64,000 nucleotides of DNA from Amycolatopsis sp. 2-15 (GTDB lineage Bacteria > Actinomycetota > Actinomycetes > Mycobacteriales > Pseudonocardiaceae), in the NCBI RefSeq assembly GCF_030285625.1, contig NZ_CP127294.1, positions 5,180,501-5,244,500 on the forward strand, read 5' to 3'. The position numbers and the translations under genes are program-made. Below, piece after piece: positions 46,899-64,000 of this stretch. Position 1 is the stretch's first letter, and every line of letters starts with the position of its first letter. The notes under the pieces were generated by a model. It made no database searches and had not been told where the DNA came from. It worked only from the letters and a program-made list of their open reading frames with translations.

Positions 46899-46995
46899 GT
46901 CGCTGCCTTTCCACTGGCGCCGGGGACTGGGGCGGAGTTTCCGAACTGGGCCACTCATCGTAACCGGGTGACGGCACGGCCACCGTCCGGGCGGG

Positions 46996-48096: not shown

Positions 48097-48123
48097 GGTG
48101 GGTCCTTTCCGTGTTCTTTCGGG

Positions 48124-49317: not shown

Positions 49318-49446
49318 GCGCCACACATACCCACCCGGCTCCGATTCGATACCGGCGGGGTCCGCGAGTGGGTAATTCGGCCGTGTGCCGGGCGCGGTCG
49401 GTGGGGAATTCTCGACGAGAAAGCAGCCGAGTCGGACGGAGCAGGC

Positions 49447-50379
49447 ATGACAGCGGGAAGCTACCGGGTACTGCCGACCGAGGTGTCATCGATCGTGAAG
49501 AACGTGGAGAGCCTGGGCTCCTCGGCGTTGTCCTCGACACGCGACCTCGAGTCGCTCGTGATCGACGCGCTCTCGTTCGCCGGGATCGGCAGCGGAGTGG
49601 CCGCGGCGAACTCGGCGCTGCAGTCGCAGCTGGTCTCTTCGCTGGGCAAGTTCGTGAGCCTCATCGGCGAGGTGAGCGGCAAGGTCCAGTCGGCGGTGCA
49701 GGGGTACACCGACGCCGATACGGCTGTGGCGCAGGGGCTCGGTGGCGGTACTCAGGCTGCCGCAGCCCCGGCTGCCGCGCCGGCTGCCGGGGGTGGCGCT
49801 GCCGCACCGGCCGCCACTCCGGCGCAGCTGGACGACCGCGTCGTCGACTCGATCATGCGATCGGAGGGCGCCACCGGCGAGCAGGGCGGCGTGCCCGAGG
49901 TCTACGGCTTCCGCCAGAACATGCACAACGGCTACGACGACATCATGGCCGCGCGCAACCAGTACGGCATCGGCAGCCCCGAGGAGCACGCCGTCGTCGC
50001 CCGCCTGATGTCCGACAACGCCCGCACGGCCGGCGCCCTCAACTTCACCGACCCCGGCACCCAGGCCGCCGTGATGTCCGGCGCCCACATGCGCGGCGCC
50101 GGCGGCGTGCGCGCCATCCTCAACCACATGGGCGGCGCCGACATCGTCCGCAGCGCGGGCACCCTCGACCCGGCCGCCGTGCAGCACATCCAGGGCCTCA
50201 CACCCGAACAGTTCCAACAGGACTTCCACGACGCCCGCATCGAGTACGACCGCCAGGTCTACGGCGCCACGACCACCACACAAGGCGGACACACCCAGAA
50301 CTGGTGGGACCGCTACGGCAACGGCCTCACGCAGCGGTATGACCGCGAACAGCGGGAGTTCCTCGGCTTTTCGCAGTAA
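49447..50379 (+). CDS. ESX-like (type VII) substrate with a lysozyme-like C-terminal domain
   Basis: A 310-residue protein in three parts. Residues 1-97 are two helices ending in SAVQGYTDADTAVAQG, with Y87-T-D-A-D91 as a YxxxD type VII export signal, as in EspC/WXG100-like proteins. Residues 98-128 are an Ala/Gly/Pro linker. Residues 129-310 form a compact domain: VVDSIMRSEGATGEQGG with Glu140 as a possible acid catalyst, VYGFRQNMHNGYDDIMAA, FTDPGTQAAVMSGAHMRGAG. The last resembles phage-type peptidoglycan hydrolases (GH108-like pattern), but that is pattern-level. No immunity gene seen. ATG 49447. Its stop is 1 bp before a repeat-rich region. Confidence 0.65.
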   Translation: MTAGSYRVLPTEVSSIVKNVESLGSSALSSTRDLESLVIDALSFAGIGSGVAAANSALQSQLVSSLGKFVSLIGEVSGKVQSAVQGYTDADTAVAQGLGGGTQAAAAPAAAPAAGGGAAAPAATPAQLDDRVVDSIMRSEGATGEQGGVPEVYGFRQNMHNGYDDIMAARNQYGIGSPEEHAVVARLMSDNARTAGALNFTDPGTQAAVMSGAHMRGAGGVRAILNHMGGADIVRSAGTLDPAAVQHIQGLTPEQFQQDFHDARIEYDRQVYGATTTTQGGHTQNWWDRYGNGLTQRYDREQREFLGFSQ

Positions 50380-50446
50380 TATCTGCCCCGGCTGGATCTT
50401 CTGCCCCGGCTCCGGCTGGATCTTCTGCCCCGGCTCCGCCGGGCGT

Positions 50447-50542
50447 GCGAGATCGCTTTAAGCCGGCTTCTTCCCTCCCGGTTTTCGCGCGGCCAAGGGG
50501 CCGCGCGAAAACCGCTCAGTCCAGAAGCCGGCGCGATCTCGC
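50447..50542 (+). repeat. 96-bp multi-palindromic element, left copy
   Basis: Nested inverted repeats: outer GCGAGATCGC/GCGATCTCGC (50447-50456/50533-50542), middle GCCGGCTTCT/AGAAGCCGGC (50462-50471/50523-50532) and a perfect 15-bp inner stem with an AAGG loop (50480-50513). A near-identical inverted copy is at 52163-52258. A further stretch of GCCGGGGCAGAAGAT-type short repeats flanks it outward (50381-50446). It could be a MITE/REP or a strong bidirectional terminator. Confidence 0.85.
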
Positions 50543-50546
50543 GTGT

Positions 50547-50910
50547 GGGCTGGGGCGGGTGAGGGTGGCTTAGTGGTGGGTCACGCCGCGGGTGGTTGGC
50601 GCAGGAGAGCGGCGATGCGGCGCGACGGGCGCCGCGCTATGGCGCCGAGTTGGCTGCCGTCGGTGGCTGGGTCGGGTGAGGGCGCCGTGTGGTGGCGAAG
50701 GGCTACTCCGCGGGTGGTTGGCGCAGCAGTGCGGTGATGCGGCGCAGTGGTCGGCGCGCGATGGCGCGGAGGGGCTGCCGTCCGTGGCTGGGTCGGGTGA
50801 GGGTGGCGTGTGGTGGCGAATGCCTACTTCGCGGGTGGTTGGCGCAGCAGAGCGGTGATGCGGCGCAGTGGTCGGCGCGCGATGGCGCCGAGGCGGGTGC
50901 CGTCGGTTTC
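50547..50910 (-). repeat. Three tandem copies (about 121 bp) of the FUSC gene 3' end
   Basis: GCGGGTGGTTGG anchors occur at 50588, 50710 and 50831: periods of 122 and 121 bp. The third copy is the true end of the FUSC gene. The others on the minus strand still encode variants of the same terminus (DGSQLGAIARRPSRRIAALL in one, frameshifted in the next). Thus the 3' end was triplicated downstream of the stop. Confidence 0.8.
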
Positions 50911-51801
50911 GGCGTTGTGCAGGAGGGCGGCTTCGGCGGTGGCCAGGGCCGAGGGGTCGGGCGTGCCGGTGAGGACGGCGGTCACGGCGTCGGAGAGGGG
51001 GCCCGCGACTTCCGACGTGTCGGTCGGTTCGCCGCGGGCGGTGAGCTCGGTGGTGTCCTCGAAGTGGATGCGCACGAGGGTGCCGATGTCGGCGGCGGTG
51101 CGGGCGAGGGGCACGAGGGCGGCGAGGCGGTCGGTCTCGGTGCGGCGCCACCACGGGTGGGCGCGCACCGCTTTCCGTGCCAGGGCGAGCTTTCCGGGCA
51201 ACGCGCGGGCGCGGGACTCGACCGCGCGCACCGACTCCTCGCCGAGTGGCGCCCGGAGGTTCTGGGCCAGCTCGGCCGCGATCTCGTGGAGTTCGTTCAC
51301 GAACGTGCGGGCCGGGTTCGCCGGCACCAGCAACGGTGCGAGCACCACGGTCACCCCGGCGCCGACGGCCGTCTCCCACAGGCGCGACACCGCGTAGGAG
51401 TCCGGGTCGGTGCTGGCGAACACGAGCAGCGCCGACACGGCGACCTGGATGTTGAGCGTGCCGCCGATGCGCAGGACGATGCCCATGGCGAGGGCCAGCG
51501 CCAGCACGAGCGTGAGCGCCCCGGTGGACGGGTGGACCACGCGCAGCACGAGGATCCCGATCGACAGCCCGCACACCACGCCGGCCACGCGCGCGAGGGA
51601 CACGTTGAACGTCGAGTACGGCGCGTCCCGCATGGACACCAGTGGCACGACCACCGCGTACACCGGCGGCTGCCGCGCGCCCAGCCACACGCAGATCTGC
51701 CACGCCACGGCCGCCGTCACCACGATCCGCAGCGCGAACGGCCCGTCCGCACGCAGCAGCTCGCCCGCGCGGCCCACGTGACGGGCGAGGACTCCGGTCA
51801 T
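50824..51801 (-). CDS. FUSC-family (aromatic acid exporter-like) membrane protein
   Basis: A 325-residue protein with about five to six transmembrane helices in the first 150 residues (LRIVVTAAVAWQICVWLGAR, VYAVVVPLVSMRDAPYSTF, LVLALALAMGIVLRIGG) and a cytoplasmic helical C-terminal region. This matches the FUSC/DUF939 half-transporter pattern linked to export of aromatic acids. ATG 51801 chosen; the open frame to 52056 is repeat DNA. It is bracketed by inverted repeat elements and its own duplicated end. Confidence 0.82.
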   Translation of the reverse strand: MTGVLARHVGRAGELLRADGPFALRIVVTAAVAWQICVWLGARQPPVYAVVVPLVSMRDAPYSTFNVSLARVAGVVCGLSIGILVLRVVHPSTGALTLVLALALAMGIVLRIGGTLNIQVAVSALLVFASTDPDSYAVSRLWETAVGAGVTVVLAPLLVPANPARTFVNELHEIAAELAQNLRAPLGEESVRAVESRARALPGKLALARKAVRAHPWWRRTETDRLAALVPLARTAADIGTLVRIHFEDTTELTARGEPTDTSEVAGPLSDAVTAVLTGTPDPSALATAEAALLHNAETDGTRLGAIARRPLRRITALLRQPPAK

Positions 51802-51890
51802 CGCCCCATCCTCGGGCCGGGCGCGGGATCCGTCCAGCTGACCCCTGCAGCAGAAAAGGCCTGGGCAGGCCCCCGCCCGGAGCGCGCTAC

Positions 51891-52150
51891 GCGCACGCAA
51901 CCTCACCGGCGGCGGGCAGGGCATAGGCGGTCTCACCGACGGCGCCGGGCAGGGCGCACGCAACCTCACCGACCTGGCCCGGCCGGGCGCACGCAACCTC
52001 GCCGACCGCGGCGGGCAGGACCGGGAGCGGGCGACTTCACCGACCGCGGCGGGCACGACCGGGAGTGAGCGACTTCACCGACCGCGGCGGGCTGGGCGTG
52101 GGCGGTCTCACCAACAGCGGCGGGCCGGCCATCGGCGAGTTCACCCGCGA
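51891..52150 (+). repeat. Degenerate minisatellite (about 33-39-bp units)
   Basis: About seven imperfect units, each built on a CTCACCGAC-GCGGCGGGC core with unit lengths near 33 or 39 bp (multiples of three). Plus-strand frames give short peptides like LTDGAGQGARN and LTDLARPGARN; minus frames give PAAVGEVAHSRSCPP. There is no start or stop pattern typical of a gene, and the 442 bp between FUSC and TetR hold no other gene that I can support. Confidence 0.6.
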
Positions 52151-52162
52151 CGTAACCCCTCC

Positions 52163-52258
52163 GCGAGATCGCGCCGGCTTCTGGACTGAGCGGTTTTCGC
52201 GCGGCCCCTTGGCCGCGCGAAAATCGGGAGGGAAGAAGCCGGCTTAAAGCGATCTCGC
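52163..52258 (-). repeat. 96-bp multi-palindromic element, right copy (inverted)
   Basis: Reverse-complement copy of 50447-50542, same length, with one clear substitution in the inner stem (a G-T pair). Outward similarity continues for at least about 24 bp (one indel), then short GCCGGGGCAGAAGATACA repeats up to about 52310. It contributes the final codons and stop of the TetR gene that comes from the right. Confidence 0.85.
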
Positions 52259-53008
52259 ACGCCCCGGCGGAGCCGGGGCAGAAGATACAGCCGGGGCAGA
52301 AGATACAGCAAAAGGTAGAGATCGGTACCAGATCTGGCCGATCACCGCGCCGAGGTCCTGGATGCGCTCGGGCCGGGGGGTCACGGGCAGGAGTCCGATG
52401 TGGACGTAGGCCATCTGCTCGATGAGCGAGCCGAGGGCCTCGGCGTGGAGCTCGTAGTGGGTCGCCTCGATCACGCCGGCCTCGTGCAGCCGCCGCAGCC
52501 AGCGTTCGGTGCGGTGCACGAAGCCGGAGCGCACCTGCAGCCACAGCTTGAGGAATCCCTCGTTCTCGCTCGCCGCCGCGGCTTCACGCATCACGCGTAG
52601 CAGGTGGCGGTTGCGCGCGTACGAGTGCAGATAAGCGATGGTCTGCTCCACCAGGTGGTGCTGCTCGTCGCCGGAGCGTGGCGCGGTGGCCGACGCCGCC
52701 GCGAGCTCTTCCAGCGCCGGCTGCAGTGCCGCGAGGAAGATGTCGTCGAGGCTGGTGAAGTGGCGGTAGAAGTTGCCCTGCGCGGTGTCGGCCCGGTTGG
52801 TGATGTCCGAGACGCGGGTGCGCGTGTAGCCGTACTCGGAGAAGCACGCCGTGGCGGCCTGTACGAGCTTGTCGCGGGTCTGCGCGCCGCGTTTGTTGGG
52901 GCGCTTGTCCACCGCGTCGGGTTGCAGCGCGGCGATCAGCTCGCGGACGCGTACGCGCGCGGCCTCTGCCCGGTCCTCGCCGGTCGTCTCCTGCGTGCTA
53001 CTGCTCAT
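52244..53008 (-). CDS. TetR-family regulator with a repeat-derived C-terminus
   Basis: A 254-residue TetR regulator: KLVQAATACFSEYGYTRTRV, TAQGNFYRHFTSLDDIF (HTH), then a normal ligand-binding domain. The last 20 residues (VSSAPAVSSAPAPPGRARSL) are encoded by the repeat element, and the stop lies within it. It starts 19 bp after the PPDK-like gene stop, on the same strand, so it is the last gene of the P450 operon and probably its repressor. ATG 53008 or TTG 53023. Confidence 0.82.
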   Translation of the reverse strand: MSSSTQETTGEDRAEAARVRVRELIAALQPDAVDKRPNKRGAQTRDKLVQAATACFSEYGYTRTRVSDITNRADTAQGNFYRHFTSLDDIFLAALQPALEELAAASATAPRSGDEQHHLVEQTIAYLHSYARNRHLLRVMREAAAASENEGFLKLWLQVRSGFVHRTERWLRRLHEAGVIEATHYELHAEALGSLIEQMAYVHIGLLPVTPRPERIQDLGAVIGQIWYRSLPFAVSSAPAVSSAPAPPGRARSL

Positions 53009-53027
53009 CTTCTGCTCACCCAACCGG

Positions 53028-54521
53028 TCATTCGCGTCCGCCGACCTTACTGTGCACCAGCGCGAGCAGCTCAGGCAGCGCGCCGTCGCCGCCGGTCCGC
53101 GCGGTGGCCCACTCCGTGAGTGTCGCCGCGGGACCGTCGACGGTCGTGCCCGCTCCGCTCGCCCGGTCGCCGTCGAGCACCGCGCCGGTCGTGCCGTCGA
53201 CAGTCACGAGCCGCCCGCGCAGCGCGTCGACGGTGCCGTCGCCACAGCCGACCACGCAGGGGATGCCCGCCTCACGGCACACGAGGGCCGCGTGGGAGGT
53301 CGACCCGCCGTGCTCGGTCACGACGGCGGCCGCCGCGAACATCGCCGGCACGTCCTCCGGGGAGGTGAACGGCCGCACGAGCACCACGGCCGTCCCGTCG
53401 TCCGAGGCGTCCAGCGCTTCGTCGGGGTCGGTCACGACCCGGCCTACACCCAGGCCGGGTCCCGCGCTGGTGCCGCGGGCCAGCTCGACGCCCTCGGCCG
53501 CGCCGGCCGTCTCCAGCAGCTGCGTGGCCTGGGCCGGGGTCACGCGCGTGAGCGCCGTGTCGGTGTCGATCAGGCCTTCGCCGACGAGGTCCACGGCGAT
53601 GCGCGCCGCCGCGCCGGGCGTGCGCTTGCCGGCCCGCGCCTGCAGCACGTAGAGCGTGCCGGACTCGATCGTGAACTCCACGTCGACCATGTCGCGGTAC
53701 TCGCGCTCCAGCACCCCGGCCAGGCGGAGCAGCTCACGGTGGTTGCCCGGCTGCGTGCGCGCGAGCTCGTCCAGCCGGGCCGGGGTGCGCTCGCCGGACA
53801 CCACGTCCTCACCCTGCGCGCGGGCCAGCCACTCGCCGTAGACGTCGGGCTCGCCGGTGCCGGGATCGCGGCTGAACAGCACGCCGGTGCCGGACTCGGC
53901 GTCGCGGTTGCCGAACGCCATGGCCTGCACGGTCACGGCCGTGCCGCCGAGATCGGTGATGCCGTGGTGCTCGCGGTAGCTCACCGCGCGCGGCGAGAAC
54001 CAGGAGCGGAACACGGCGCCGATCGCCGCGCGCAGCTGCTCACGCGGGTCCGCTGGCGGCGGGCCGCCGACGATGCCGGAGTACGAGCGCTCGAACCGTT
54101 CCCACGTGTCCGCCGCCCACGCGGGGTCGCCCGACTGTTCGGCCAGCGCGTCGCGCAGCTCCTGCGTGAGGCCGAGGTTGAGGACGGTGTCCATCATCCC
54201 GGGCATGCTGCGGGCGGCGCCGGAACGCACGGACACCAGCAGCGGCCAGCCTGGTCCGCCGAAGCGGCGGCCGGTGCGCTCCTCCAGGTGCGCCAGGTGG
54301 TCGAGGACCTGTGCCCAGACGGCGTCGGGCAGCGTGCCGCCCGCGTGGTAGGCGGTGCAGACGTCCACGGTGATCGCGAACGCCGGGGGCACCGGCAGTC
54401 CGAGCGAACGCATCCGGTTGAGGCTGTGGGCCTTGCCGCCCACGAGGTCGCGGCCCAGCGGGCGCGTGCCGTCGAGGGGGAGCACGGTCTCGGTCGACTC
54501 GGGAAGCGCCGTGGTGGTCAC
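53028..54521 (-). CDS. Truncated PPDK-like phosphotransferase (ATP-grasp + swivelling His domain; CreI-like)
   Basis: A 497-residue protein equal to the first two domains of pyruvate phosphate dikinase. The ATP-grasp region begins LVGGKAHSLNRMRSLGLPVP and includes LVSVRSGAARSMPGMMDTVL; the phosphohistidine domain is TEHGGSTSHAALVCREAGIP with His410. The PEP/pyruvate TIM barrel (about 350 residues) is missing, so the phosphate must go to another acceptor. In C. glutamicum CreI with CreH phosphorylate p-cresol in such a way. GTG 54521 overlaps the SDR stop by 4 bp. Role in phenol phosphorylation is inferred from context. Confidence 0.82.
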   Translation of the reverse strand: MTTTALPESTETVLPLDGTRPLGRDLVGGKAHSLNRMRSLGLPVPPAFAITVDVCTAYHAGGTLPDAVWAQVLDHLAHLEERTGRRFGGPGWPLLVSVRSGAARSMPGMMDTVLNLGLTQELRDALAEQSGDPAWAADTWERFERSYSGIVGGPPPADPREQLRAAIGAVFRSWFSPRAVSYREHHGITDLGGTAVTVQAMAFGNRDAESGTGVLFSRDPGTGEPDVYGEWLARAQGEDVVSGERTPARLDELARTQPGNHRELLRLAGVLEREYRDMVDVEFTIESGTLYVLQARAGKRTPGAAARIAVDLVGEGLIDTDTALTRVTPAQATQLLETAGAAEGVELARGTSAGPGLGVGRVVTDPDEALDASDDGTAVVLVRPFTSPEDVPAMFAAAAVVTEHGGSTSHAALVCREAGIPCVVGCGDGTVDALRGRLVTVDGTTGAVLDGDRASGAGTTVDGPAATLTEWATARTGGDGALPELLALVHSKVGGRE

Positions 54522-55327
54522 CGGGAGGTCCTTTCGGTGCTGGGCTCGGCGGTGCCGGGTTCCCGCACCGCGGCCAGGTGCGTGCGCGCGGCGGCCAGAC
54601 CGCCTTCGACGGGCAGGTCGATGCCGTTGACCCACGAGGCCGCCGGGCTGAGCAGGAACGCGGCCGCCGCGGCGACCTCGCCGGGCTGCGCGTGCCGTCC
54701 GACCATGGCGCCGGCGCGGTCGATCGACTCGGCGCCCATCGACTCGCGGAAGTCGGCCAGGATCGGCGTGTGCACGGGGCCGGGGCTCACACTCACCGCA
54801 CGGGCGCGCGGCAGCAGCCGGGCCGCCAGTCGTGCGCTCCACGCGACGAGCGCGGCTTTCGACGTGTCGTAGGCGGCGGCGCCCGAGAGCGGGAACTCCG
54901 CGAGCCAGTCCGCCAGCTCGGCGTCACTGTCCACAGTGCACAGCCGGTCGAGAGCTTCGGCCGGGAGCGTGTTGCGGTGGGCGGCGATGGACGCCACCGT
55001 CACCACGGCGCCGCCCTCGGCCAGTCGCGGCAGCAGCGCGTCGGTGAGCACACGCGTGCCGACCACGTTCACCGCGAGCACGGTGGCGGCCGGCGCGGTG
55101 CCGGGCACGCCGGCGACGTTGGCGATGCCGTCGAGCTCGGGGACGCTCGCCGCGGCCTCGCGCACGGCGGCGAAGTCGGTGAGGTCCACCCGCAGGGCCC
55201 GGTCCACGGGCACGGGGATCTCAGCGCGGTCGACGCCGATCACGGCCACTCCTTCGTCGGCCAGCTGCCGGGCGAGCGCGAGGCCGACGCCCGACGCGGC
55301 GCCCGTGACGAGGATCCGGCGCGTCAT
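54518..55327 (-). CDS. Short-chain dehydrogenase/reductase (CreG-like position)
   Basis: A 269-residue SDR: ILVTGAASGVGLALARQLAD (Rossmann), NVAGVPG, catalytic Ser in VASIAAH, and YDTSKAALVAW (Tyr-x3-Lys). A tail of about 20 residues extends beyond usual length. In the cluster it would oxidise the hydroxymethyl (benzylic-type) alcohol to aldehyde with NAD+. ATG 55327 overlaps the aldehyde dehydrogenase stop by 4 bp. Substrate inferred. Confidence 0.85.
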   Translation of the reverse strand: MTRRILVTGAASGVGLALARQLADEGVAVIGVDRAEIPVPVDRALRVDLTDFAAVREAAASVPELDGIANVAGVPGTAPAATVLAVNVVGTRVLTDALLPRLAEGGAVVTVASIAAHRNTLPAEALDRLCTVDSDAELADWLAEFPLSGAAAYDTSKAALVAWSARLAARLLPRARAVSVSPGPVHTPILADFRESMGAESIDRAGAMVGRHAQPGEVAAAAAFLLSPAASWVNGIDLPVEGGLAAARTHLAAVREPGTAEPSTERTSR

Positions 55328-56745
55328 CGCAGCACCGCCTGCACCGCGGTGAGGTCGGCGATGCCTTCGGCGCCGAGCTCGCGGCCGTAGCCGGAGGCCT
55401 TGCGCCCGCCGAACGGCACGCCGGGGCGCTCGCGGGTGCGCACGCCGTTGATCTTGACCTGGCCCACGCGCAGCGTCCGCGCGAAGCTCTCGGCCCGGTC
55501 GGGGTCGGCGGACCAGACCTCGGCGGACAGGCCGAAGTCGCTGTCGTTCGCGACGGCGGCGGCGTCCGCCTCGTCGGTGTAGGGCTGCACGACGAGCACG
55601 GGACCGAACACCTCCTGGCGCACCAGCGGATGCCGGGCGTCGAGTCCGAAGTAGACGCGCGGGCCGACGAAGAATCCGTGCGAGGGCAGCAGCTGCAGTG
55701 GTGGTGTCACCGCGCGGTCGTCGCCGGCGGTGTCGAGCAGGTGGCGCACGCGGTCGCGCTGGCGCGCCGAGGCCAGCGGCCCGAACGTGGTGGCCGGGTC
55801 ACGCGGATCACCGGCGACCATCGCGTCGAGCGCGTCGATGACGAGTGCTTCGACGTCGGTGAGGGCACTGCGCGGCACCACGATCCGCGTGGTCGCGTTG
55901 CACGCCTGGCCCGAGTTCACGAGGCCACTCTTCACCGCTGCCGGGACCGCGCGCGCCAAATCCACGTCCGGCAGCAGCACGGCGGCCGACTTCCCGCCCA
56001 GCTCCAGCGTGGTCGACGCCGTGTGCCCGGCGGCGAGCGCGGCGACCGCCTGCCCGGCCGGGACGCTGCCCGTGAACGACACGTGGGCCACCCGCGGGTC
56101 GGCCACGAGTGCCTCGCCGGTCACCGGCCCGGTGCCTTGCACGACCGAGAGCACTCCCGGGCCGAACCCGGCTTCGAGCGCGGCGGCCGCGATGAGGTTC
56201 GCGTCGAACGGCGTGGCCTCACTCGGTTTGAGCACCACGGTGTTGCCCGCGGCGAGTGCCGCGCCGACCTTGGCGATGATCTGGTGCGCCGGCATGTTCC
56301 ACGGCGTGATCGCGCCGACCACACCGAGCGGCACCCGGTGCAGCTGCGCGCCGTCGATCTTCTCGGTCCACGGGAACGCGCGCGTGGCGGTGGCGAACGC
56401 GCGCAGCACCCGCGGCGGCAGATCGCCCTGGCTCGCCGCCGAGAGCGTGGCGGGCATGCCCATCTCGCGCGTGATCAGCGCCGCCAGCTCACCCGAGCGG
56501 GCCGCCAACAGGTCGGCCAGGCGGTCGAGCAGGTCGGCGCGATCGGCCGGACTGGTCCGTTCCCACTCCGGGCGCGCCGCCTCCGCCGCCGTGACGGCTT
56601 CGGCGGTGAGACCGGGGCCGGCCTCGGCCGTCTCGCCGATCGGCTGCTCGGTGTACGGGTCGACGACGGGGATCGCGGGGCCGTCGGGCGTCCGCCACTC
56701 GCCGCCGACGAGGCACGCCGCGCGCCCCAGCCACTGCTCAGCCAC
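55324..56745 (-). CDS. Aldehyde dehydrogenase (CreC-like position)
   Basis: A 473-residue NAD(P)-dependent aldehyde dehydrogenase: GVVGAITPWNMPAHQIIAKV, VVLKPSEATPFDANL, ELGGKSAAVLL (general-base Glu), NSGQACNATTR (catalytic Cys) and the terminal PFGGRKASGYGRELG. It would turn the aldehyde made by the SDR into the acid. GTG 56745 overlaps the P450 stop by 8 bp. Same operon. Confidence 0.88.
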   Translation of the reverse strand: MAEQWLGRAACLVGGEWRTPDGPAIPVVDPYTEQPIGETAEAGPGLTAEAVTAAEAARPEWERTSPADRADLLDRLADLLAARSGELAALITREMGMPATLSAASQGDLPPRVLRAFATATRAFPWTEKIDGAQLHRVPLGVVGAITPWNMPAHQIIAKVGAALAAGNTVVLKPSEATPFDANLIAAAALEAGFGPGVLSVVQGTGPVTGEALVADPRVAHVSFTGSVPAGQAVAALAAGHTASTTLELGGKSAAVLLPDVDLARAVPAAVKSGLVNSGQACNATTRIVVPRSALTDVEALVIDALDAMVAGDPRDPATTFGPLASARQRDRVRHLLDTAGDDRAVTPPLQLLPSHGFFVGPRVYFGLDARHPLVRQEVFGPVLVVQPYTDEADAAAVANDSDFGLSAEVWSADPDRAESFARTLRVGQVKINGVRTRERPGVPFGGRKASGYGRELGAEGIADLTAVQAVLR

Positions 56746-57955
56746 GGTCGCTCACCAGCCGTACCGGCAGCCGCTTCACGCCGCGGAAGAAGTTGCTGCG
56801 CAAGCGTTCCGGCGGCGCCTGCACGTCCACGCGCAGGCCGCGCTCACGCAGGCGGCGCAGGAACAGCTGGGCCTCCAGCCGCGCGAGGTGCGCGCCGAGG
56901 CAGGCGTGCACGCCCCAGCCGAAGCCGAGGTGCTCGTTGGGCGTGCGCTCGGCGCGGAACTCGTCGGGCGCGGCGAACACGGTCTCGTCGCGGTTGCCCG
57001 AGGCGAACCACAGCACCACTTTCTGCCCGGCCTCGATCGTGCGGCCGTGCAGCTCGACGTCGCGCGTCGCGGTCCGCCGCATGCACAGCACCGGCGACAC
57101 CCAGCGCACCATCTCCTCGACCGCGCCCGGGATCCGGTCCGCGTCGGCGCGCAGCGCGGCCCACTGCTCCGGGAACGCGCCGAACGCGATCATCCCGCCG
57201 GTGAGCAGGTTCCGGGTGGTCTCGTTGCCGGCGACCATGAGCAGCAGGTAGTACGCGTCGAGCTGGCCGCGGTTGAGCGGCTCGCCACCGGGTGCCGCGT
57301 GGGCTAGCACGCTCACCAGGTCTTCGGCGGGGTTCGCGCGCCGCTGCGCCTCCAGCTCGTGGAAGAAGGCGAAGATCTCGTCGCGCGCCCGGGCGGCGGT
57401 CTCCGGACCCGAGCTGTACTCGGGATCGTCCGACGCCATCTGGTTGGTCCAGCGCTGCATGTGCGGGCACGCCTCGGGCGGCGCGCCGAGCAGGCGGCCG
57501 ATCACCAGCAGCGGCAGCTGGGCCGCGACCGTGTGCACGAAGTCGAACGTGCCGTCCTGGGCCAGCGCGGTGTCGAGCAGCTCGTCGATGACCGTGACGA
57601 TGTCGCCCTCGAGCGGGCGGACCTTCGCGGGCCGCACGTGCGGCACCACGAGCTTGCGCAGCGCCCCGTGGCGCGGCGGGTCCATGTTGTGGATGCTGGG
57701 TTCGCCGTGCCCCTCGGCGCGGCGGTCCGGGATCTGCGTCCCTTCGGCGGAGGAGAAGCTCTCGTGGTCGGCGGCGATGCGCTTGATGTCGGCGTACCGC
57801 GTCACCGACCAGAAACCGCGGCCGCCGGGTTCGTCGTTCCAGTGCAGCGGATCGTGCTCACGCAGCTCGCGGAACGCCTCGTGGTCGGACCCCGTGGCGA
57901 ACAGGTCCAGATCCATGAGGTCGACGGCTGTCGCGCCGGACGTCTGTTCGGACAC
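56738..57955 (-). CDS. Cytochrome P450 (CreJ-like position)
   Basis: A 405-residue soluble bacterial P450: I-helix AGNETT (242-247), ExxR at Glu281-Arg284, heme loop FGWGVHACLGAHLA with Cys352. It needs external ferredoxin and reductase, which are encoded in this cluster at 62.2-63.5 kb. In the C. glutamicum cre system the homologous P450 hydroxylates the alkyl group of the phosphorylated phenol. GTG 57955, first gene of the operon. CYP family cannot be read without alignment. Confidence 0.9.
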   Translation of the reverse strand: MSEQTSGATAVDLMDLDLFATGSDHEAFRELREHDPLHWNDEPGGRGFWSVTRYADIKRIAADHESFSSAEGTQIPDRRAEGHGEPSIHNMDPPRHGALRKLVVPHVRPAKVRPLEGDIVTVIDELLDTALAQDGTFDFVHTVAAQLPLLVIGRLLGAPPEACPHMQRWTNQMASDDPEYSSGPETAARARDEIFAFFHELEAQRRANPAEDLVSVLAHAAPGGEPLNRGQLDAYYLLLMVAGNETTRNLLTGGMIAFGAFPEQWAALRADADRIPGAVEEMVRWVSPVLCMRRTATRDVELHGRTIEAGQKVVLWFASGNRDETVFAAPDEFRAERTPNEHLGFGWGVHACLGAHLARLEAQLFLRRLRERGLRVDVQAPPERLRSNFFRGVKRLPVRLVSDRG

Positions 57956-57982
57956 CGCTGTCCCTTCTGTCGCGCCTTGCTG

Positions 57983-58000
57983 GATTGCGAACGCTCAATC
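57983..58000. promoter_or_regulatory. Inverted repeat GATTG-N8-CAATC before the P450 gene
   Basis: Perfect 5-bp arms, 28-45 bp upstream of the P450 start in the 169-bp divergent region. Possibly the TetR operator. Short arms make this tentative. Confidence 0.4.
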
Positions 58001-58082
58001 ACTACAGCACATCCCGTCCGAGAACGGAAGAGCCGTTTACGAAGAGAAGGGCCATGCAAGAGCGTTGCGGTGGCGCTCGTTC

Positions 58083-58099
58083 GTGACATAGCATTCACA
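58083..58099. promoter_or_regulatory. GTGAC-N7-TCACA motif upstream of the acyl-CoA ligase
   Basis: An imperfect palindrome (GTGA-N8-TCAC core) 26 bp before the ligase GTG and 128 bp from the P450 start. The same GTGAC-N7-TCACA arrangement occurs before the ferredoxin gene at 63531, so this may be a cluster-wide operator. Confidence 0.5.
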
Positions 58100-58124
58100 A
58101 ACAGTCGAGAAGGAGGTTGATGGC

Positions 58125-59660
58125 GTGTACCCCGCCCCGATTGCGCGCGAGCGGCCCGGCGCCCGGGCGTACGTGATGGCGCCGAGCGGCGAGAGCCTCA
58201 CCTACGCCGAGCTCGAGGCCCGCTCCAACCAGGTCGCGCACCTGCTGCGCGAGCGGGGGATCGGCCCTGGCGGCACGCTGCTGCTCGTCCTCGAGAACCG
58301 GCTGGAGTGGCCGGTGCTCGTCGCCGCGGGCATGCGCTCCGGACTCTACGTGACGCCGGTGAACTGGCACCTGCGCGCCGGCGAGCTCGGCCCGCTGCTC
58401 GCGGAGGCGGTGGGCGACGGCGCGTCGTGCGCGATCGTCACCAGCGCCCGCTGTGCCGACGTCGTCGCCGAAGCCCTGCGCGAGGTCGGCAAGCCGGCGC
58501 TGCTGCTGTCCGTGGACGCGGGTGGTGACCTGGAGTTCCTCGGCGACGCCGTGGCGGGCCTGCCTGAGACGCCGATCGAAGGCGAGCTGCTCGGCGCGCG
58601 GGTGCTCTACAGCGGCGGCAGCACCGGGCGGCCCAAGGCGTTCCGCCAGCAGTTGCTCGGCGTGCACCCGGCCGACGCGCCCGCCCGCCACGCGGGGCTC
58701 GCGGCGAAGCTGGAGCTGGCCGCCGACACCGTGTTCCTCTCGCCTGCGCCGAACTACCACGCCGCGCCGTTCACCTTCCAGCTCATCACGCTCTCGCTCG
58801 GCGGCACCGTGGTGTGCCTCGACCGCTTCGACGCGGAGCGCTCGCTCGCGGCGATCGCGGCGCACGGCGTGACGCACTCGCAGTGGGTGCCCACGATGCT
58901 GCTGCGGCTGCTGCGCCTGTCCCCGGAAGCCCGCGCGCGCCACGACCTGAGCAGCCACCGCGTCGCGTTCACCTCCGGCGCGCCGTGCCCTCCCGAAGTC
59001 AAGACGGCGATCATGGACTGGTGGGGCCCGATCCTGCACGAGTACTACGGCGCGTCCGAGGGCTACGGCCACACCTACGTCGGCCCGCACGACGCACTGG
59101 CGCACCCGGGCACGGTGGGGAAACCGTTGTCCGGCAGCGTGCACGTGACCGACGACGCCGGGCGCGAGGTCCTGGCGGGCACCGTCGGGAAGGTGTGGTT
59201 CGCGCCGGGCGGCTCGGTCTACCGCAACGCCGGCGACGCGGGCGCCGACCTGCGCAGCGTCGGTGACCTCGGCCGGCTCGACGAGGACGGGTTCCTCTAC
59301 CTCGTCGGCCGCGAGGGACACACGATCATTTCCGGCGGCGTGAACGTCTACCCGACCGAGGTCGAGGACACCCTGCTCACCCACCCGGCCGTGGCCGACG
59401 CCGCCGTGATCGGCCTGCCCGACCCCGAGTTCGGTGAGGGCGTGGCGGCTGTCGTTGAACTGACCGTCGAGCGCGCCGGCGACGTGAGCGGGGCCGAGCT
59501 GATCGAGTACTGCCGCGAGCGGCTGGCCGGGTTCAAGGCGCCGCGGCGCGTCGAGTTCGTGGCGAGCCTGCCCCGGCTGCCGACGGGCAAGCTGAACAAA
59601 ACCCTGCTGCGAGACCGAATCCTGTCCGGCGACTCCGGTGCAACCGGCGAAGGAGCATGA
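58125..59660 (+). CDS. Acyl-CoA synthetase / acid-CoA ligase (ANL superfamily)
   Basis: A 511-residue adenylate-forming ligase: P-loop YSGGSTGRPKAF, core YYGASEGYG, LGRLDEDGFLYLVGREGHTI (hinge), and PRLPTGKLNKTLL with the catalytic Lys. It makes acyl-AMP then acyl-CoA. Beside the P450/ALDH operon the acid is likely an alkylphenol-derived or aromatic acid. GTG 58125 has AGGAGG. It is divergent from the P450 operon and followed after 3 bp by a regulator gene. Confidence 0.87.
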   Translation: MYPAPIARERPGARAYVMAPSGESLTYAELEARSNQVAHLLRERGIGPGGTLLLVLENRLEWPVLVAAGMRSGLYVTPVNWHLRAGELGPLLAEAVGDGASCAIVTSARCADVVAEALREVGKPALLLSVDAGGDLEFLGDAVAGLPETPIEGELLGARVLYSGGSTGRPKAFRQQLLGVHPADAPARHAGLAAKLELAADTVFLSPAPNYHAAPFTFQLITLSLGGTVVCLDRFDAERSLAAIAAHGVTHSQWVPTMLLRLLRLSPEARARHDLSSHRVAFTSGAPCPPEVKTAIMDWWGPILHEYYGASEGYGHTYVGPHDALAHPGTVGKPLSGSVHVTDDAGREVLAGTVGKVWFAPGGSVYRNAGDAGADLRSVGDLGRLDEDGFLYLVGREGHTIISGGVNVYPTEVEDTLLTHPAVADAAVIGLPDPEFGEGVAAVVELTVERAGDVSGAELIEYCRERLAGFKAPRRVEFVASLPRLPTGKLNKTLLRDRILSGDSGATGEGA

Positions 59661-59663
59661 CCC

Positions 59664-60284
59664 ATGACGACGTCCACCCGAGCGCGGTTCCTCGTGCTCC
59701 ACGCGTTGCGAGTGAAGGGCCTGGCCCCCGACCCCGTGCTGCAGGCGCTCACCGGACTGCTGGCGGACGAGGTGGCCGCCGAGGTCGCCGCGCTGGTGGC
59801 GGACGGGCTCGCGGTGCGCCGGGAAGGCCGCCTCGCCGGGACCATGCCGACGCCGGCCGGGCGCGCCGCCCACCCGGAGCTGCTCGCGGCCGATGTCGCG
59901 GACTCCACCGAGGCGCTTTCCACGGCGTACGAAGCATTTCTGCCCGTGAACGGCGAGTTCAAGCGAGTCTGCTCGGCCTGGCAGCTGCGGCCCTCCGGTG
60001 AGCCCAACGACCACGCCGACGCCGCGTATGACGCCGAGGTGGTCGAGGCGCTGGCGGAGGTGAACGGGAAGGTGGCCGGCCTGCTCGACACGCTCACCGC
60101 GTCCGCCGGCCGGTTCGGCACCTACCCGGTGCGCCTCGCCGGGGCGCTGGAGCGCGTGCGGGCGGGGGAAACCGCCGCGTTCGCCCGGCCGATGGCCGAC
60201 TCGTACCACGACATCTGGATGGAACTGCACCAGGACCTCCTGCTGTCCGCCGGCCGGGAACGCTCGGCCGCCGACGAAGGCTGA
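59664..60284 (+). CDS. Winged-helix (MarR/PadR-like) probable regulator
   Basis: A 206-residue protein. The first 70 residues fit a winged helix (RARFLVLHALRVKGLAPDPV, VAALVADGLAVRREGRLAGT, MPTPAGRAAH); the remaining 130 are helical (EALAEVNGKVAGLLDTLTAS; YHDIWMELHQDLLLSAG). It is not a clear member of MarR or PadR. It starts 3 bp after the ligase, with GGAG upstream. Regulator by inference; the helical part could bind ligand. Confidence 0.6.
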   Translation: MTTSTRARFLVLHALRVKGLAPDPVLQALTGLLADEVAAEVAALVADGLAVRREGRLAGTMPTPAGRAAHPELLAADVADSTEALSTAYEAFLPVNGEFKRVCSAWQLRPSGEPNDHADAAYDAEVVEALAEVNGKVAGLLDTLTASAGRFGTYPVRLAGALERVRAGETAAFARPMADSYHDIWMELHQDLLLSAGRERSAADEG

Positions 60285-60300
60285 GCCGCCGAAGGCTTGT

Positions 60301-60356
60301 CCGGCAACGGAAAGGGCCTGCACCCCACGCGGAGTGCAGGCCCTTTCCATTGCCGG
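60301..60356. terminator. Strong bidirectional terminator
   Basis: Perfect 15-bp stem (60309-60323 with 60334-60348), a 10-nt loop and an outer 7-bp stem CCGGCAA/TTGCCGG (60301-60307 with 60350-60356). It is between the convergent regulator and PEP-utilizing gene. Confidence 0.85.
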
Positions 60357-60358
60357 GG

Positions 60359-62098
60359 CTAGACTTCCAGCACCGTGACGGTGCCGGTGGTGCCGTCGAC
60401 CTCGATGAGGGCGCCGTTCGGGATCCGGGCGGAGGCGGCCGTCGCCGAGACCACGCACGGGATACCGAGCTCGCGGCTCACGATCGCGGCGTGGGAGAAC
60501 GGCGCGCCGACGTCCACGACCACCGCGGCGGCCGGCACGAACAGCGGCGTCCACGACGGGTCGGTCAGCGGGGCGACCAGGATCTCACCGGGCTCCAGCG
60601 CCGACGGGTCGTCGGCGCTGGTGACCACGCGGGCGCGCCCGCGCGTCGAGCCGTTGCAGCCCGGCACGCCCTGGATGACCTCGCCGGCGACGGCGGGCCG
60701 CACCTCACGGCCCGAGCGGCGCGGCCAGTTCTCCACGGGCTCCGGCTGGCCCACGACCACGAACGGCGGCTCGCGGTCGAACAGGTCCAGGTAGGCCGCT
60801 TCACGGTCGCGCAGCGTCGTGGCGAAGCTCGCCGGGTCGGCCAGGAACGCGTCGAGCTCGCCGGCGAACAGCATGAAGATCTGCTCGGGGCGCTCCAGGT
60901 GCCCTTCGGCGGTGAAGCGGCGGCCCAGCTCGAGCGCGGGCAGGCGCAGCTCGTGCATGACCATGGCGCACGACGTGCGGCCGCGCTCACGGCCCCGCAG
61001 CCACAGCGCGGCCGCGTGCAGCACGGCCTCGAACTGGCCCAGCGCCTCGTCGTTGCCCGCCAGCGCGGCCCGCACACCGGCGGAGGCCGCCTCGCGCTGC
61101 TCGACGCGTTCGGCGTTCTTCACCGCGGGCGATGCGGAGTCGTCAGCCTGGCGCATGCGGTCCACAGTGGACAGAACGAGCGAAGGCTTGACACCCCACG
61201 TCTTCGCGCGGATCTCCCACTCCGACGGGCCGCGGAAGTCCCACGCCGTCAGGAATTCGTCGAGCTGACGCGTGAAGGCCACGACCTCGGGGTCGCCGCT
61301 CGCGCGCAGGCGCTCGACCAGGCCGTCCAGGCCCTCGTTGAACAACGCGGCCACCGGGCCGGTGCGGGCCAGGCGCGAGAGTGCCCACATGCCGGTGGAC
61401 GGGCCGGTCGAGTCGATGTCGCCGATGCCGGCCACCAGCGTCAGCGCCAGTTCGGGCTTGCCGATCGCCTCGGTGAACTGCGCGACGGCACCCAGGCCGA
61501 CGCCCGCCTTGAGGCTTGCTTCGATGTGGCGGCTCAGCAGCGGCTGCAGTACGTCGTTGAACGACGTGATCCGCTCGCGCAGCTCCTGGTCGCCCAGGTC
61601 CCCGATGGCGGGGCGGTTCTTGCGGATGTCCTCCACGGTGCGGCGGTCGGCGTCGTAGGCCGCGAGGTCCGTGGCGCCGAGCACCTGCTCGGCCAGCCAC
61701 TGCCCGGCCGTGGCCTCGAACTCGGGGTTCTCGTCGAAGTCGCGCTTTTCGCTTTCGTACGAGGGGATGCCGGGCATGTCGCCGAAGTACTGCAGGTCCA
61801 CCGCTTCCGGCGTCATGCCGGGCACGCGCACGCCGAACAGGCGCATCAGGGACATGTTGATGTAGAGGTAGCTGCCGAAGGCGGGGAGCACGTTGTGCTG
61901 CACGGCGGAGTCGTAGGTGGCGTGGTCCCACACCCCGCACGCGACGAACGCGTCGTCCCAGCCGGGCGAGAGGTTCGCCTGGAAGCCCGCCGACGCGTTG
62001 AGCGGGCTGATCGGGTCGGGGAAGATCTCGCCGATGTTGGCGCGCGAGTAGATCGGGAAGACCGCCGACGCGTCGTCGTAGATGGGCCACTGGGTCAT
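60359..62098 (-). CDS. PEP-utilizing-domain protein (CreH / phenylphosphate synthase alpha-like)
   Basis: A 579-residue protein: a long novel helical region (DFDENPEFEATAGQWLAEQV, FTEAIGKPELALTLVAGIGD) that would bind the acceptor, then a terminal swivelling domain with phosphohistidine GAPFSHAAIVSRELGIPCVV, His536. The ATP-grasp domain is missing and lies in the separate PPDK-like gene. The combination of a His-domain protein and a separate ATP-binding protein is that of phenylphosphate synthase (PpsA, PpsB) and CreHI. ATG 62098 follows GAGGAGAGG. Third gene of the fdx-reductase operon. Confidence 0.85.
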   Translation of the reverse strand: MTQWPIYDDASAVFPIYSRANIGEIFPDPISPLNASAGFQANLSPGWDDAFVACGVWDHATYDSAVQHNVLPAFGSYLYINMSLMRLFGVRVPGMTPEAVDLQYFGDMPGIPSYESEKRDFDENPEFEATAGQWLAEQVLGATDLAAYDADRRTVEDIRKNRPAIGDLGDQELRERITSFNDVLQPLLSRHIEASLKAGVGLGAVAQFTEAIGKPELALTLVAGIGDIDSTGPSTGMWALSRLARTGPVAALFNEGLDGLVERLRASGDPEVVAFTRQLDEFLTAWDFRGPSEWEIRAKTWGVKPSLVLSTVDRMRQADDSASPAVKNAERVEQREAASAGVRAALAGNDEALGQFEAVLHAAALWLRGRERGRTSCAMVMHELRLPALELGRRFTAEGHLERPEQIFMLFAGELDAFLADPASFATTLRDREAAYLDLFDREPPFVVVGQPEPVENWPRRSGREVRPAVAGEVIQGVPGCNGSTRGRARVVTSADDPSALEPGEILVAPLTDPSWTPLFVPAAAVVVDVGAPFSHAAIVSRELGIPCVVSATAASARIPNGALIEVDGTTGTVTVLEV

Positions 62099-62166
62099 GG
62101 AGACCTCTCCTCGTCTTTGAGTTGGGCAGTTGGGTGGTAGTGGTGGTTTTCTTGCGGTGCGGTGAC

Positions 62167-63315
62167 TCAGGCGGACGTGAGCCGCCGCCGTTCGAGGGCG
62201 AGCTGTTTGGGCAGGCCGAACGCGACGGAGCCGACGTGCCGGCCGCCCGTCGAGTAGCGGGCGACGAACTTGTCCCCGGCGAGGTTGCCGTGCACGAGCT
62301 CCACGTGCTCGCCGCGGCCGGGCAGGCCGACGCCCTGGATGCGCAGGCCGCACTGGTCGGACCAGAACGAGGGCACGGCGTCGAACGGGGCCGACGGGCC
62401 GTGCAGCAGCGTGCGCGCGGCCGCGGCGGCACCGAGCGCGGCGGTGGTCCAGTGCTCCACGCGCACCGGCGCGCCGAGCAGCGGGTGGGTCCAGCGGGCG
62501 ACGTCGCCCGCGGCCACCGCGTCCGGCACCACAGCGCCGGATTCGTCGAGCACGCGCAGGTATTCGTCGCAGCGGACGCCGCCGGACACGTCGACGCCGC
62601 TGCCGGCGAGCCAGCCGGTGGCCGGGCGGACGCCGGTCGCGATGACGACCACGTCGGCGCGCACCACGCGGCCGTCGGACAGCACCGCGCCGCTCACGCG
62701 GTCCCGGCCGAGGAACTTCACGACCTGGGTGCCGAGCAGCCAGCGCACGCCGCGTTCGCGGTGCAGCCGCTCGACGCGGCGGGCGACGTCTTCGCCGAGC
62801 ACACGGACGAGCGGGTGGGGGAGCGGGTCGGCGACGGCCACGGGGAGGCCGAGGTCGCGGCACGTCGAGGCGAGCTCGCAGCCGATGAAGCCGGCACCGA
62901 GCACGAGCACGCGGCCGGTGAGGTCGGCTTTGAGGGCGCGGGCGTCGTCGAGCGTGCGCAGGACGTGCACACCGGGCGGGCGGTTGAGGCCGGCAGGGAT
63001 CACGGGGGCGGAGCCGGTGGCGATCACGAGGCCCGTGAAGTCGAGCTCTTCGCCGTCTCCGAGGACGACGGTGCGGCCGCGCAGGGTGGCGACGGGGTTA
63101 CCGAGGCGCCAGGTGACTTCGGTGTCACTGTCGGACAGGGCCAGCGCGGCTTCTCCGGTGGCGCCGGTGAGCAGGCCCTTGGACAGCGGCGGCCGGTCGT
63201 AGGGCCGGTGCGCTTCGGCGCCGGCCACCACGATCTCACCGCGGAACCCCTCGGCGCGCAGCGCTTTGGCGGCCCGCCAGCCGGCGAGCCCCGCTCCCGC
63301 GACCACGATTCGCAC
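62167..63315 (-). CDS. Ferredoxin reductase, FAD/NAD(P)-dependent (CreE-like position)
   Basis: A 382-residue FAD-NAD(P) oxidoreductase: MRIVVAGAGLAGWRAAKALR (FAD), RPPLSKGLLTG, GRVLVLGAGFIGCELASTC (NAD(P)), DAVAAGDVARW and a C-terminal clamp. This is the rubredoxin/putidaredoxin-reductase type that feeds P450s through a ferredoxin. It starts 3 bp after the ferredoxin gene, so both are an electron-transfer pair for the P450. Confidence 0.88.
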   Translation of the reverse strand: MRIVVAGAGLAGWRAAKALRAEGFRGEIVVAGAEAHRPYDRPPLSKGLLTGATGEAALALSDSDTEVTWRLGNPVATLRGRTVVLGDGEELDFTGLVIATGSAPVIPAGLNRPPGVHVLRTLDDARALKADLTGRVLVLGAGFIGCELASTCRDLGLPVAVADPLPHPLVRVLGEDVARRVERLHRERGVRWLLGTQVVKFLGRDRVSGAVLSDGRVVRADVVVIATGVRPATGWLAGSGVDVSGGVRCDEYLRVLDESGAVVPDAVAAGDVARWTHPLLGAPVRVEHWTTAALGAAAAARTLLHGPSAPFDAVPSFWSDQCGLRIQGVGLPGRGEHVELVHGNLAGDKFVARYSTGGRHVGSVAFGLPKQLALERRRLTSA

Positions 63316-63318
63316 CGG

Positions 63319-63507
63319 CTACTCCGCGATCCGGATCGCGCGGGTGGGGCAGGCGCGGGCGGCGCGGTGCACCGCTTCGCGCAGGTTCGCGACCGGCCCG
63401 AGGTCGATGTGCAACACGGCTTCGTCGTCGAGGCTGAACACCTCGGGCGCGGCGAACTCGCACTGCCCGTGGCTTTCGCACAGGACCGGGTCGACTTCGA
63501 CGTTCAC
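63319..63507 (-). CDS. P450-type 3Fe-4S/4Fe-4S ferredoxin (CreF-like position)
   Basis: A 62-residue ferredoxin: LCESHGQCEFAAPEVF has C-x2-H-x2-C, with His replacing the second Cys, and ARACPTRAI has the terminal Cys-Pro. Such single-cluster ferredoxins ([3Fe-4S] or His-ligated [4Fe-4S]) donate electrons to actinobacterial P450s. GTG 63507. First gene of the operon, with a GTGAC-N7-TCACA repeat upstream. Confidence 0.9.
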   Translation of the reverse strand: MNVEVDPVLCESHGQCEFAAPEVFSLDDEAVLHIDLGPVANLREAVHRAARACPTRAIRIAE

Positions 63508-63699: not shown

Positions 63700-64000
63700 G
63701 TGCGGGTACTGCTCACGAACGACGACGGCATCGAAGCCCCGGGCCTGCTCGCGCTGGCCCACGCCCTGCGGGACGCGGGGCACGACCTCGTCGTGGCCGC
63801 GCCCGCGGGGGACAGCAGCGGCAGCGGCACGTCGCTGGGCGCCATCGACCACGGCACGATCGTCGCGTGCGAGCCGCACGCGCTGCCCGGCCTCGACGGC
63901 GTGCCGGCGCACCGCGTGTCGGCGCCACCGGCGTTCGCCGTGCTCGCGGCCTGCTTCGGCGCCCTCGGCCCGCCGCCCGACGTGGTGGTCGCGGGCATCA
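63700..64000 (+). CDS. surE: 5'/3'-nucleotidase SurE (partial, runs off the window)
   Basis: The first 100 residues, from GTG 63700. RVLLTNDDGIEAPGLLALAH carries the metal-binding Asp-Asp; AAPAGDSSGSGTSL and PDVVVAGI are the next SurE blocks. The family dephosphorylates nucleotides and other phosphate monoesters. The gene is divergent from the cre-like ferredoxin operon. Whether it serves the phosphate-removal step of that pathway is untested. C-terminus not in the window. Confidence 0.82.
   Translation, partial: MRVLLTNDDGIEAPGLLALAHALRDAGHDLVVAAPAGDSSGSGTSLGAIDHGTIVACEPHALPGLDGVPAHRVSAPPAFAVLAACFGALGPPPDVVVAGI

Follow-up and report, generated by a model that had tools for sequence, protein, structure and literature searches.

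The gene cluster

The subject of this work is a gene cluster at the right end of a 64,000-nucleotide stretch of the soil actinomycete Amycolatopsis sp. 2-15 (contig NZ_CP127294.1, positions 5,180,501 to 5,244,500; hereafter the window, meaning this whole stretch), in which a putative small-molecule kinase appears to be divided over three genes. The host genome is a 10.05-Mb single contig and the closest relatives of the window proteins belong to Amycolatopsis (93% for PEPu and 94% for the small protein, both described below). A previous sequence-only reading had taken the region for a cre-like cluster that phosphorylates and oxidises alkylphenols, extended by a coenzyme A (CoA) ligase, and all the reading frames that it named were found at their positions.

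On the minus strand, a cytochrome P450 gene (56738..57955; Pfam p450, with what we take to be the heme Cys and I-helix motifs) is followed by an aldehyde dehydrogenase (ALDH; 55324..56745; Aldedh, 440.5 bits), a short-chain dehydrogenase/reductase (SDR; 54518..55327) resembling coniferyl-alcohol dehydrogenase and 3-alpha-hydroxysteroid dehydrogenase (PRK12428, 230 bits, under the cut-off of 242), a truncated pyruvate phosphate dikinase (PPDK) that we call PpdK (53028..54521), and a TetR-family regulator (52244..53023; TetR_N, 44.8 bits) as the final gene. Neighbouring genes among the first four share 4-8 nt and TetR stands only 4 nt from PpdK, so all five can be considered a single operon. A second operon on the same strand comprises a small ferredoxin (63319..63507; Fer4_15), a ferredoxin reductase (62167..63315; Pyr_redox_2 and Reductase_C), both of them presumed redox partners of the P450, and PEPu (60359..62098), a 579-aa protein of the phosphoenolpyruvate (PEP)-utilizing type. 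The plus strand carries an ANL-family (AMP-binding) acyl-CoA ligase (58125..59660), FadD4-like with 458.5 bits, under that model's cut-off of 850, paired with a small protein of 206 aa (59664..60284). An 819-aa minus-strand open reading frame over 58095-60554 was discarded, given its codon bias, as a shadow of the ligase gene. Finally, divergent from the ferredoxin gene, the right edge holds the 5' part of a SurE-family phosphatase gene (63700..64000, plus strand; start inferred at ~63700), missing from the earlier gene list, that runs past the window to ~64476 and whose product is 47% identical over 251 aa to the SurE of a related cluster (L016; Pfam SurE, 135.2 bits).

PpdK, a truncated PPDK and putative ATP half

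PpdK (497 aa) has an ATP-grasp domain and a swivel domain with His410, and would be the ATP half of the kinase; in Pfam it matches PPDK_N and PEP-utilizers, and PEPu matches PEP-utilizers alone. It passes the NCBIfam model PRK05878 with 617.9 bits against a cut-off of 456. Against PPDK among the solved structures its score is 371 bits; against 9goj_A, probably HpeI to judge from the chain length of 387 aa, it is 41.5 bits. With PPDK it shares the ATP-grasp and the TSH swivel motif but not the C-terminal PEP/pyruvate barrel, since no PEP/pyruvate-binding domain was matched by Pfam in its 497 residues. In a tree of 28 sequences PpdK falls among truncated and full-length PPDKs, separated by a branch of support 1.000 from the rifampin phosphotransferase (RPH)-like protein of its own genome, a context-defined HpeI (L155), CreI-like proteins and two other ATP halves. 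Several rows of this tree are stop-to-stop frames that exceeded the gene length before trimming, and the L058 row has a very long branch and is probably a wrong frame, with no bearing on that split. The proposal that 53028-54521 encodes a CreI-like protein was rejected on the PRK05878 match, the structure scores and the tree, and the protein has a swivel His of its own. An identity as RPH or PEP synthase was rejected as well, as it groups with PPDK.

In its own genome only two proteins match PPDK_N (PF01326) at E ≤ 0.001, PpdK and a fused RPH-like 893-aa frame, which leaves PpdK as the only free-standing ATP half open to PEPu. Its architecture is that of the VadK family, truncated PPDKs with ATP-grasp and catalytic His and no PEP/pyruvate domain. 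VadK (Rv1127c of Mycobacterium tuberculosis) lacks the pyruvate domain and autophosphorylates on His422 (PMC13400623, EMBO Rep 2026), and its authors state that the M. tuberculosis genome has no gene for the missing domain; in their view VadK is a histidine kinase that regulates the methylcitrate cycle (PMC13400623). In contrast to that published role, PpdK sits here among an RPH-like acceptor, a P450, dehydrogenases, a ligase and a phosphatase.

PEPu, a putative acceptor half with RPH-like fold

The other half would be PEPu, which matches RPH residues ~318-867, spanning the substrate and swivel domains, with His536 in the latter. RPH unites ATP-grasp, substrate and swivel domains in a single chain, whereas no ATP-grasp match was found in the 579 aa of PEPu; an identity as RPH was thus rejected for want of the ATP domain, although the fold is RPH-like. 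The domain order (substrate domain plus swivel) is that of CreH and HpeH, as the sequence-only reading had proposed for 60359-62098, but PEPu is only 20.9-22.2% identical to four HpeH/CreH-like proteins, which are proxies and not authentic CreH, HpeH or PpsA, and lies outside their clade. The mutual identity of CreH, HpeH and PpsA is ~45% (PMC12167813). To judge from these proxies, PEPu does not seem to be a close CreH. Grouping of the two halves with RPH or true PEP synthases had been named beforehand as the outcome that would speak against a phenol kinase; taken literally, this outcome did not occur, as the ATP half groups with PPDK and the acceptor, RPH-like in its fold, forms a clade of its own.

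The CreHI, HpeHI and PpsAB kinases share with the window the separation of an ATP protein from an acceptor made of substrate domain and swivel with catalytic His. In those kinases the ATP protein consists of a PEP-synthase-type ATP-grasp and nothing more, whereas PpdK is PPDK-type with its own swivel, and they have two components where the window kinase has a third protein. These predicted features do not support placing the window kinase in the CreHI type.

The small protein

The 206-aa product of 59664..60284 had been described as a winged helix-turn-helix gene and is annotated as MarR in databases. A structural model (pLDDT 94), with the fold read from predicted secondary structure, indeed gives a winged-helix N-terminus followed by a helical C-terminal domain, but no Pfam or NCBIfam model matched at E ≤ 0.001 and the protein is homologous to a kinase partner, the protein that adjoins PpdK in plasmids of M. 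avium (37% over 191 residues) and Diaphorobacter (45% over 136). The C-terminal part is more conserved than the N-terminal one. The family, judged from vadK-like loci and not from Rv1126c itself, is that of Rv1126c, the operon partner of VadK, whose co-expression improves VadK solubility and whose binding is tight enough for 2 M NaCl to have been used to part the two (PMC13400623). In vadK loci this partner lies beside the kinase; here it is in another operon. The small protein is probably a kinase subunit, as these likenesses suggest, and a role solely as MarR-type regulator is less likely, given that conservation is stronger in the C-terminal domain and that VadK is bound by the homologue.

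The small protein is present in 48 of 249 genomes of the order. We fetched the loci of 50 of its 52 match rows, leaving out its own row and one 59-residue fragment. PpdK was found with more than 150 bits in 31 of them and with some match in 37. Two further loci (L112 and L144) have an ATP-grasp/swivel protein in place of a PpdK match. In these two, the protein beside the Rv1126c-type gene (L112:9400-10614 and L144:9186-10334) has ~380-400 aa and is placed by the tree on the side of RPH and HpeI; a second class of ATP half may thus be served by the small protein. Loci L098 and L100 have PrpR and PrpD as neighbours, and L098 also PrpC; M. tuberculosis vadK has been described in this setting (PMC13400623).

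Conservation of the cluster

A genome scan with PEPu gave at least 590 relatives, and the best 80 loci were fetched and searched by tblastn with the window proteins. The full set of eight genes (PEPu, PpdK, small protein, ligase, P450, ALDH, SDR and TetR) occurs in 13 of these 80, in at least three gene orders. Eleven of them (L009-L019) belong to Pseudonocardia, Nocardioides, Rhodococcus/Rhodococcoides, Gordonia, Nocardia and Aldersonia, and L058 and L073 come from gammaproteobacterial bins. The same set is found in plasmid pA of R. pyridinivorans, annotated there as "pyruvate, phosphate dikinase", "coniferyl-alcohol dehydrogenase", "MarR" and "SurE". Given this recurrence in other genera, the genes are not together by chance. 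The ferredoxin and reductase of the window were not found in the fetched loci at the thresholds used. Among the other 67 loci, five (L048, L060, L070, L072 and L084) have PEPu, PpdK and the small protein without the remaining genes.

Some of the loci carry further genes. In five full clusters (L011, L012, L016, L018 and L019) PEPu is followed by a pair of EcKL (ecdysteroid-kinase-like/APH) kinases and an F420-dependent oxidoreductase of the TIGR03857 type, the latter identified by the model in L016 and by tblastn in the other four; neither the kinases nor the oxidoreductase were found beside the window PEPu. PEPu is present in tandem in L053 (three copies) and in L059, L071 and L072 (two each), with PpdK in the fetched stretch of L072 only; the copies are possibly acceptor paralogues with a common ATP half. 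Plasmid pRZP2 of Rhodococcus sp. ZPP (L094) encodes two PEP-utilizing proteins, one of them 37% identical to PEPu, together with a phosphotransferase-family kinase, a histidine phosphatase, an AMP-binding protein, acyl-CoA dehydrogenases, MaoC, enoyl-CoA hydratase and a P450. No PPDK is annotated within the 21.7 kb shown, and the locus would be a further PEPu pathway with no ATP half in view over that stretch. In L080 the swivel pattern gave no match.

A proposed three-component kinase

Both swivel histidines, His410 of PpdK and His536 of PEPu, are kept in all 21 loci that contain the trio, from three phyla. These comprise the 13 full clusters, the five loci with the trio only and three loci on plasmids, including one full cluster. 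We take K30, R99, E282, Q294 and R296 of PpdK to be ATP-site residues as in PPDK. K30 is kept in 20 of the 21 (one uncovered), and the other four in all 21. The swivel His is also kept in 34 of the 35 PpdK matches of the order sample, the remaining one being uncovered. From sequence conservation and gene neighbourhood we propose with good confidence that PpdK, the small protein and PEPu form one kinase, a predicted variant of the swivel-domain dikinases that is present in three phyla. PpdK would transfer a phosphate group from ATP to its own His410; from there the group would pass to His536 on the swivel domain of PEPu, and this swivel would carry it to the hydroxyl of a substrate held in the RPH-like substrate domain. 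The small winged-helix protein would act as a structural or docking subunit of PpdK.

The conservation of both histidines, in spite of PpdK having lost its own substrate domain, suggests such a relay from ATP through His410 and His536 to the substrate. HpeH alone transfers phosphate between phenols and needs its His for kinase activity (PMC12167813), which fits the last step. The alternative is that the PEPu swivel docks straight onto the ATP site of PpdK, whose own swivel would then be vestigial or regulatory. Direct docking is what has been proposed for HpeHI and RPH, and modelled for HpeH on HpeI (PMC12167813), but a dispensable swivel fits less well with a His410 present in 21 of 21 trio loci and with the autophosphorylation of the equivalent His in VadK (PMC13400623). 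We consider direct docking unlikely and lean, with some reserve, towards the His-to-His relay.

Several observations weigh against the joint kinase. PpdK was not seen in the fetched stretch of 62 of the 80 PEPu loci (five of these 62, L008 and L020-L023, with PEPu of 56-76%, are short contigs), no ATP half was found nearby in 11 of the 50 small-protein loci by these searches, and a strong PpdK and a PEPu match occur together in just five of those 50. The small protein of the window is in the ligase operon and does not adjoin PpdK. E286, a sixth PpdK residue that we scored, is kept in just 16 of the 21 trio loci; among the 35 PpdK matches of the order sample, four have H in the place of K30 and a few differ at other ATP-site residues. 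VadK itself, which brings down PrpC and PrpD, was read by its authors as a protein kinase with a regulatory role, and no acceptor of the PEPu type is among the five proteins of their Table 1 (PMC13400623).

Alternatively, PpdK and the small protein could be a regulatory histidine kinase of their own, as put forward for VadK, that is simply housed in the same cluster, with PEPu charged elsewhere or no enzyme at all. The co-immunoprecipitation of VadK with methylcitrate-cycle enzymes (PMC13400623), the MarR annotation and winged helix of the small protein, and the lack of a nearby PEPu match in most PpdK/small-protein loci of the order sample are in line with this idea. It is nevertheless quite improbable, as PF01326 reveals no second free-standing ATP half in the genome, the three genes follow one another on one strand in four of five loci of non-actinobacterial type (L060, L070, L072 and L084), and a VadK-type kinase and an acceptor-type fusion, described below, are found together in 49 of 57 genomes holding either.

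Pathway and substrate

The genes around the proposed three-component kinase support the earlier proposal of a pathway with phosphorylation, P450, alcohol and aldehyde dehydrogenases and CoA ligase, and the phosphatase strengthens it. A phosphatase was found in all 13 full clusters: SurE in nine, and a histidine phosphatase without SurE in L009, L014, L058 and L073. Four full clusters have a histidine phosphatase beside SurE, the copy in L013 being a 92-residue piece. That two unrelated phosphatase families fill the same functional slot is the best evidence for a phosphate ester as intermediate.

The cre genes encode a kinase, a P450, dehydrogenases and a phosphatase, and this logic is matched by the window in gene content alone. 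By analogy, the P450, served by ferredoxin and reductase, would add a hydroxyl group to a remote alkyl carbon of the phosphorylated alcohol (or phenol). The SDR, as the presumed alcohol to aldehyde step, and then the ALDH, as the presumed aldehyde to acid step, would oxidise the hydroxylated chain to an acid. SurE would remove the phosphate, and the ligase would make the CoA ester for beta-oxidation. Late removal of the phosphate by SurE is likely, and a masked-alcohol oxidation pathway started by the three-component dikinase is, as explanation of the whole cluster, reasonably probable. To be set against it, histidine phosphatases are common genes, and the order in which the P450 acts before dephosphorylation is taken from cre.

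Regarding the substrate, the best solved matches of the window P450 are CYP125MRCA (354 bits), CYP126, CYP125, CYP153 and CYP124, closely followed by P450terp. CreJ (CYP288A2) was not among the best 60 of its 482 solved-structure matches. Several such P450s hydroxylate terminal methyls of sterol side chains, alkanes and methyl-branched lipids. A CYP125-like P450 together with SDR, ALDH and ligase thus suggests that the end of an alkyl or isoprenoid chain is oxidised and CoA-activated while a far hydroxyl is masked. The most likely substrate is an alcohol of hydrophobic character, perhaps a methyl-branched or isoprenoid one, and not p-cresol; our literature searches gave no published substrate for this cluster.

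The alkylphenol pathway of the sequence-only reading would instead have the phenolic hydroxyl of a 4-alkylphenol phosphorylated, a PPDK-type half having replaced CreI and the ligase serving longer chains. The whole chemistry set of cre is there (kinase, P450, ferredoxin, ferredoxin reductase, alcohol and aldehyde dehydrogenases and phosphatase), the RPH-like acceptor architecture is common to PEPu and HpeH, and known relatives phosphorylate phenols (PMC12167813). We find it doubtful all the same, with PEPu at 21-22% to the HpeH/CreH-like proxies, an ATP half of another family and a P450 that is CYP125-like and has CreJ outside those best 60 matches. Furthermore, R. opacus 1CP, whether or not it carries the cluster, has been reported to degrade p-cresol via ring attack, and the word "kinase" is absent from the main text of that paper. 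The steroid 25-OH kinase of Sterolibacterium was dropped as a parallel, as it is mainly ADP-forming and its genes are unnamed in the part covered of the source (PMC7411048).

A possible mycobacterial counterpart

Some mycobacterium-like genomes encode another PEPu-like protein, the PRK05865 fusion, with the architecture of Rv2047c. Its C-terminal part is homologous to the whole of PEPu (29-31% in L162 and L163), and it is joined to an NAD-epimerase-like domain whereas PEPu is free-standing. At E ≤ 1e-60 the fusion (NF004520/PRK05865) was found in 10 of the 249 genomes of the order; each of the ten also has the small protein and a PpdK. Four genomes of the same family that have PpdK but lack the fusion were examined: a PEPu adjoins the pair in G021, G230 and G234 (L107, L106 and L108) and lies elsewhere in G148 (L154). 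We also examined a one-genus sample of 118 mycobacterium-like genomes (VadK-type PpdK at E ≤ 1e-130, fusion at E ≤ 1e-100). Each protein was found in 53 of them and both in 49, with four genomes having only PpdK, four only the fusion and 61 neither. The Fisher p of this co-occurrence is 1.5e-23, uncorrected for shared ancestry and therefore only suggestive.

Both genes lie 10.4-13.2 kb apart on one contig in nine cases from eight genomes. In most of these nearby pairs PpdK is a divergent copy with ~50-53% identity to the kind found in the prp locus of L100; besides this copy, no PpdK was found in G278, G296 and G305. In L162 and L163 the small protein and PpdK are divergent to a gene of ~4200 codons with the fusion directly after it; this gene is a bimodular polyketide synthase by Pfam in L162, and its L163 counterpart is known by length alone. 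In L164 the fusion adjoins an ALDH and a P450.

Rv2047c, with epimerase and PEP-utilizing domains, is in an operon with pks12 (PMC7058343). Table 1 of that paper gives, with the columns in the order of the figure legend (cMBT, high MBT, low MBT, hemin, hemoglobin, hemin + MBT), NE ES GD NE NE ES for rv1127c, NE ES ES NE NE GD for rv2047c and NE GD GD NE NE GD for pks12. Since mmpL5 and other genes show the same pattern (PMC7058343), this is corroboration, not proof. The alcohol of mycoketide is phosphorylated and mannosylated, and the enzymes that reduce and phosphorylate it were unidentified as of 2012 (PMC3318773; later work covered by titles and abstracts). We tentatively suggest, as a possibility that falls somewhat short of likely, that VadK-type PPDK and its Rv1126c-type partner are a general ATP module that charges RPH-like acceptors, each with a hydrophobic alcohol of its own, that the acceptor in the window is PEPu with its P450 catabolic cluster and the mycobacterial one is the Rv2047c-type fusion after Pks12, and that the mycobacterial trio makes phosphomycoketide from the methyl-branched alcohol mycoketide, being the mycoketide kinase and perhaps the reductase too. 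Rv2047c is unmentioned in the main text of PMC13400623. A point against the fusion as acceptor is G348, where the PpdK frame is open and the fusion is found only as two pieces with internal stops, so that it cannot be the sole acceptor in that genome. In G313, which lacks PpdK, the fusion is in pieces too.

Sequences to the left of the cluster

The gene left of the cluster (50824-52056) is FUSC/ArAE-like by Pfam, and the ten frames leftward (38427-52056), which include this FUSC-like exporter, a GCS2-type ligase, a two-component system, Ku and others, seem unrelated by Pfam. A 103-nt inverted repeat, with arms at 50441-50543 and 52162-52264 that are 99% complementary and have 1618 nt between them, surrounds the FUSC-like gene and looks like a mobile or REP-type element. 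One of its arms overlies the 3' end of the TetR gene and supplies its final codons.

Significance

If the proposed kinase is real, it would add a third layout to the swivel-domain small-molecule dikinases, a PPDK-type ATP module plus a separate acceptor, each with a phosphohistidine, and a protein now annotated as a MarR regulator would be the third dikinase subunit. It would also give a joint function to the ~500-aa bacterial proteins annotated as "pyruvate, phosphate dikinase" and "PEP-utilizing enzyme". Two questions become testable, which protein or molecule receives the phosphate of VadK and which enzymes reduce and phosphorylate mycoketide. Furthermore, the cluster could be a tool for selective C-H oxidation using a removable phosphate handle.

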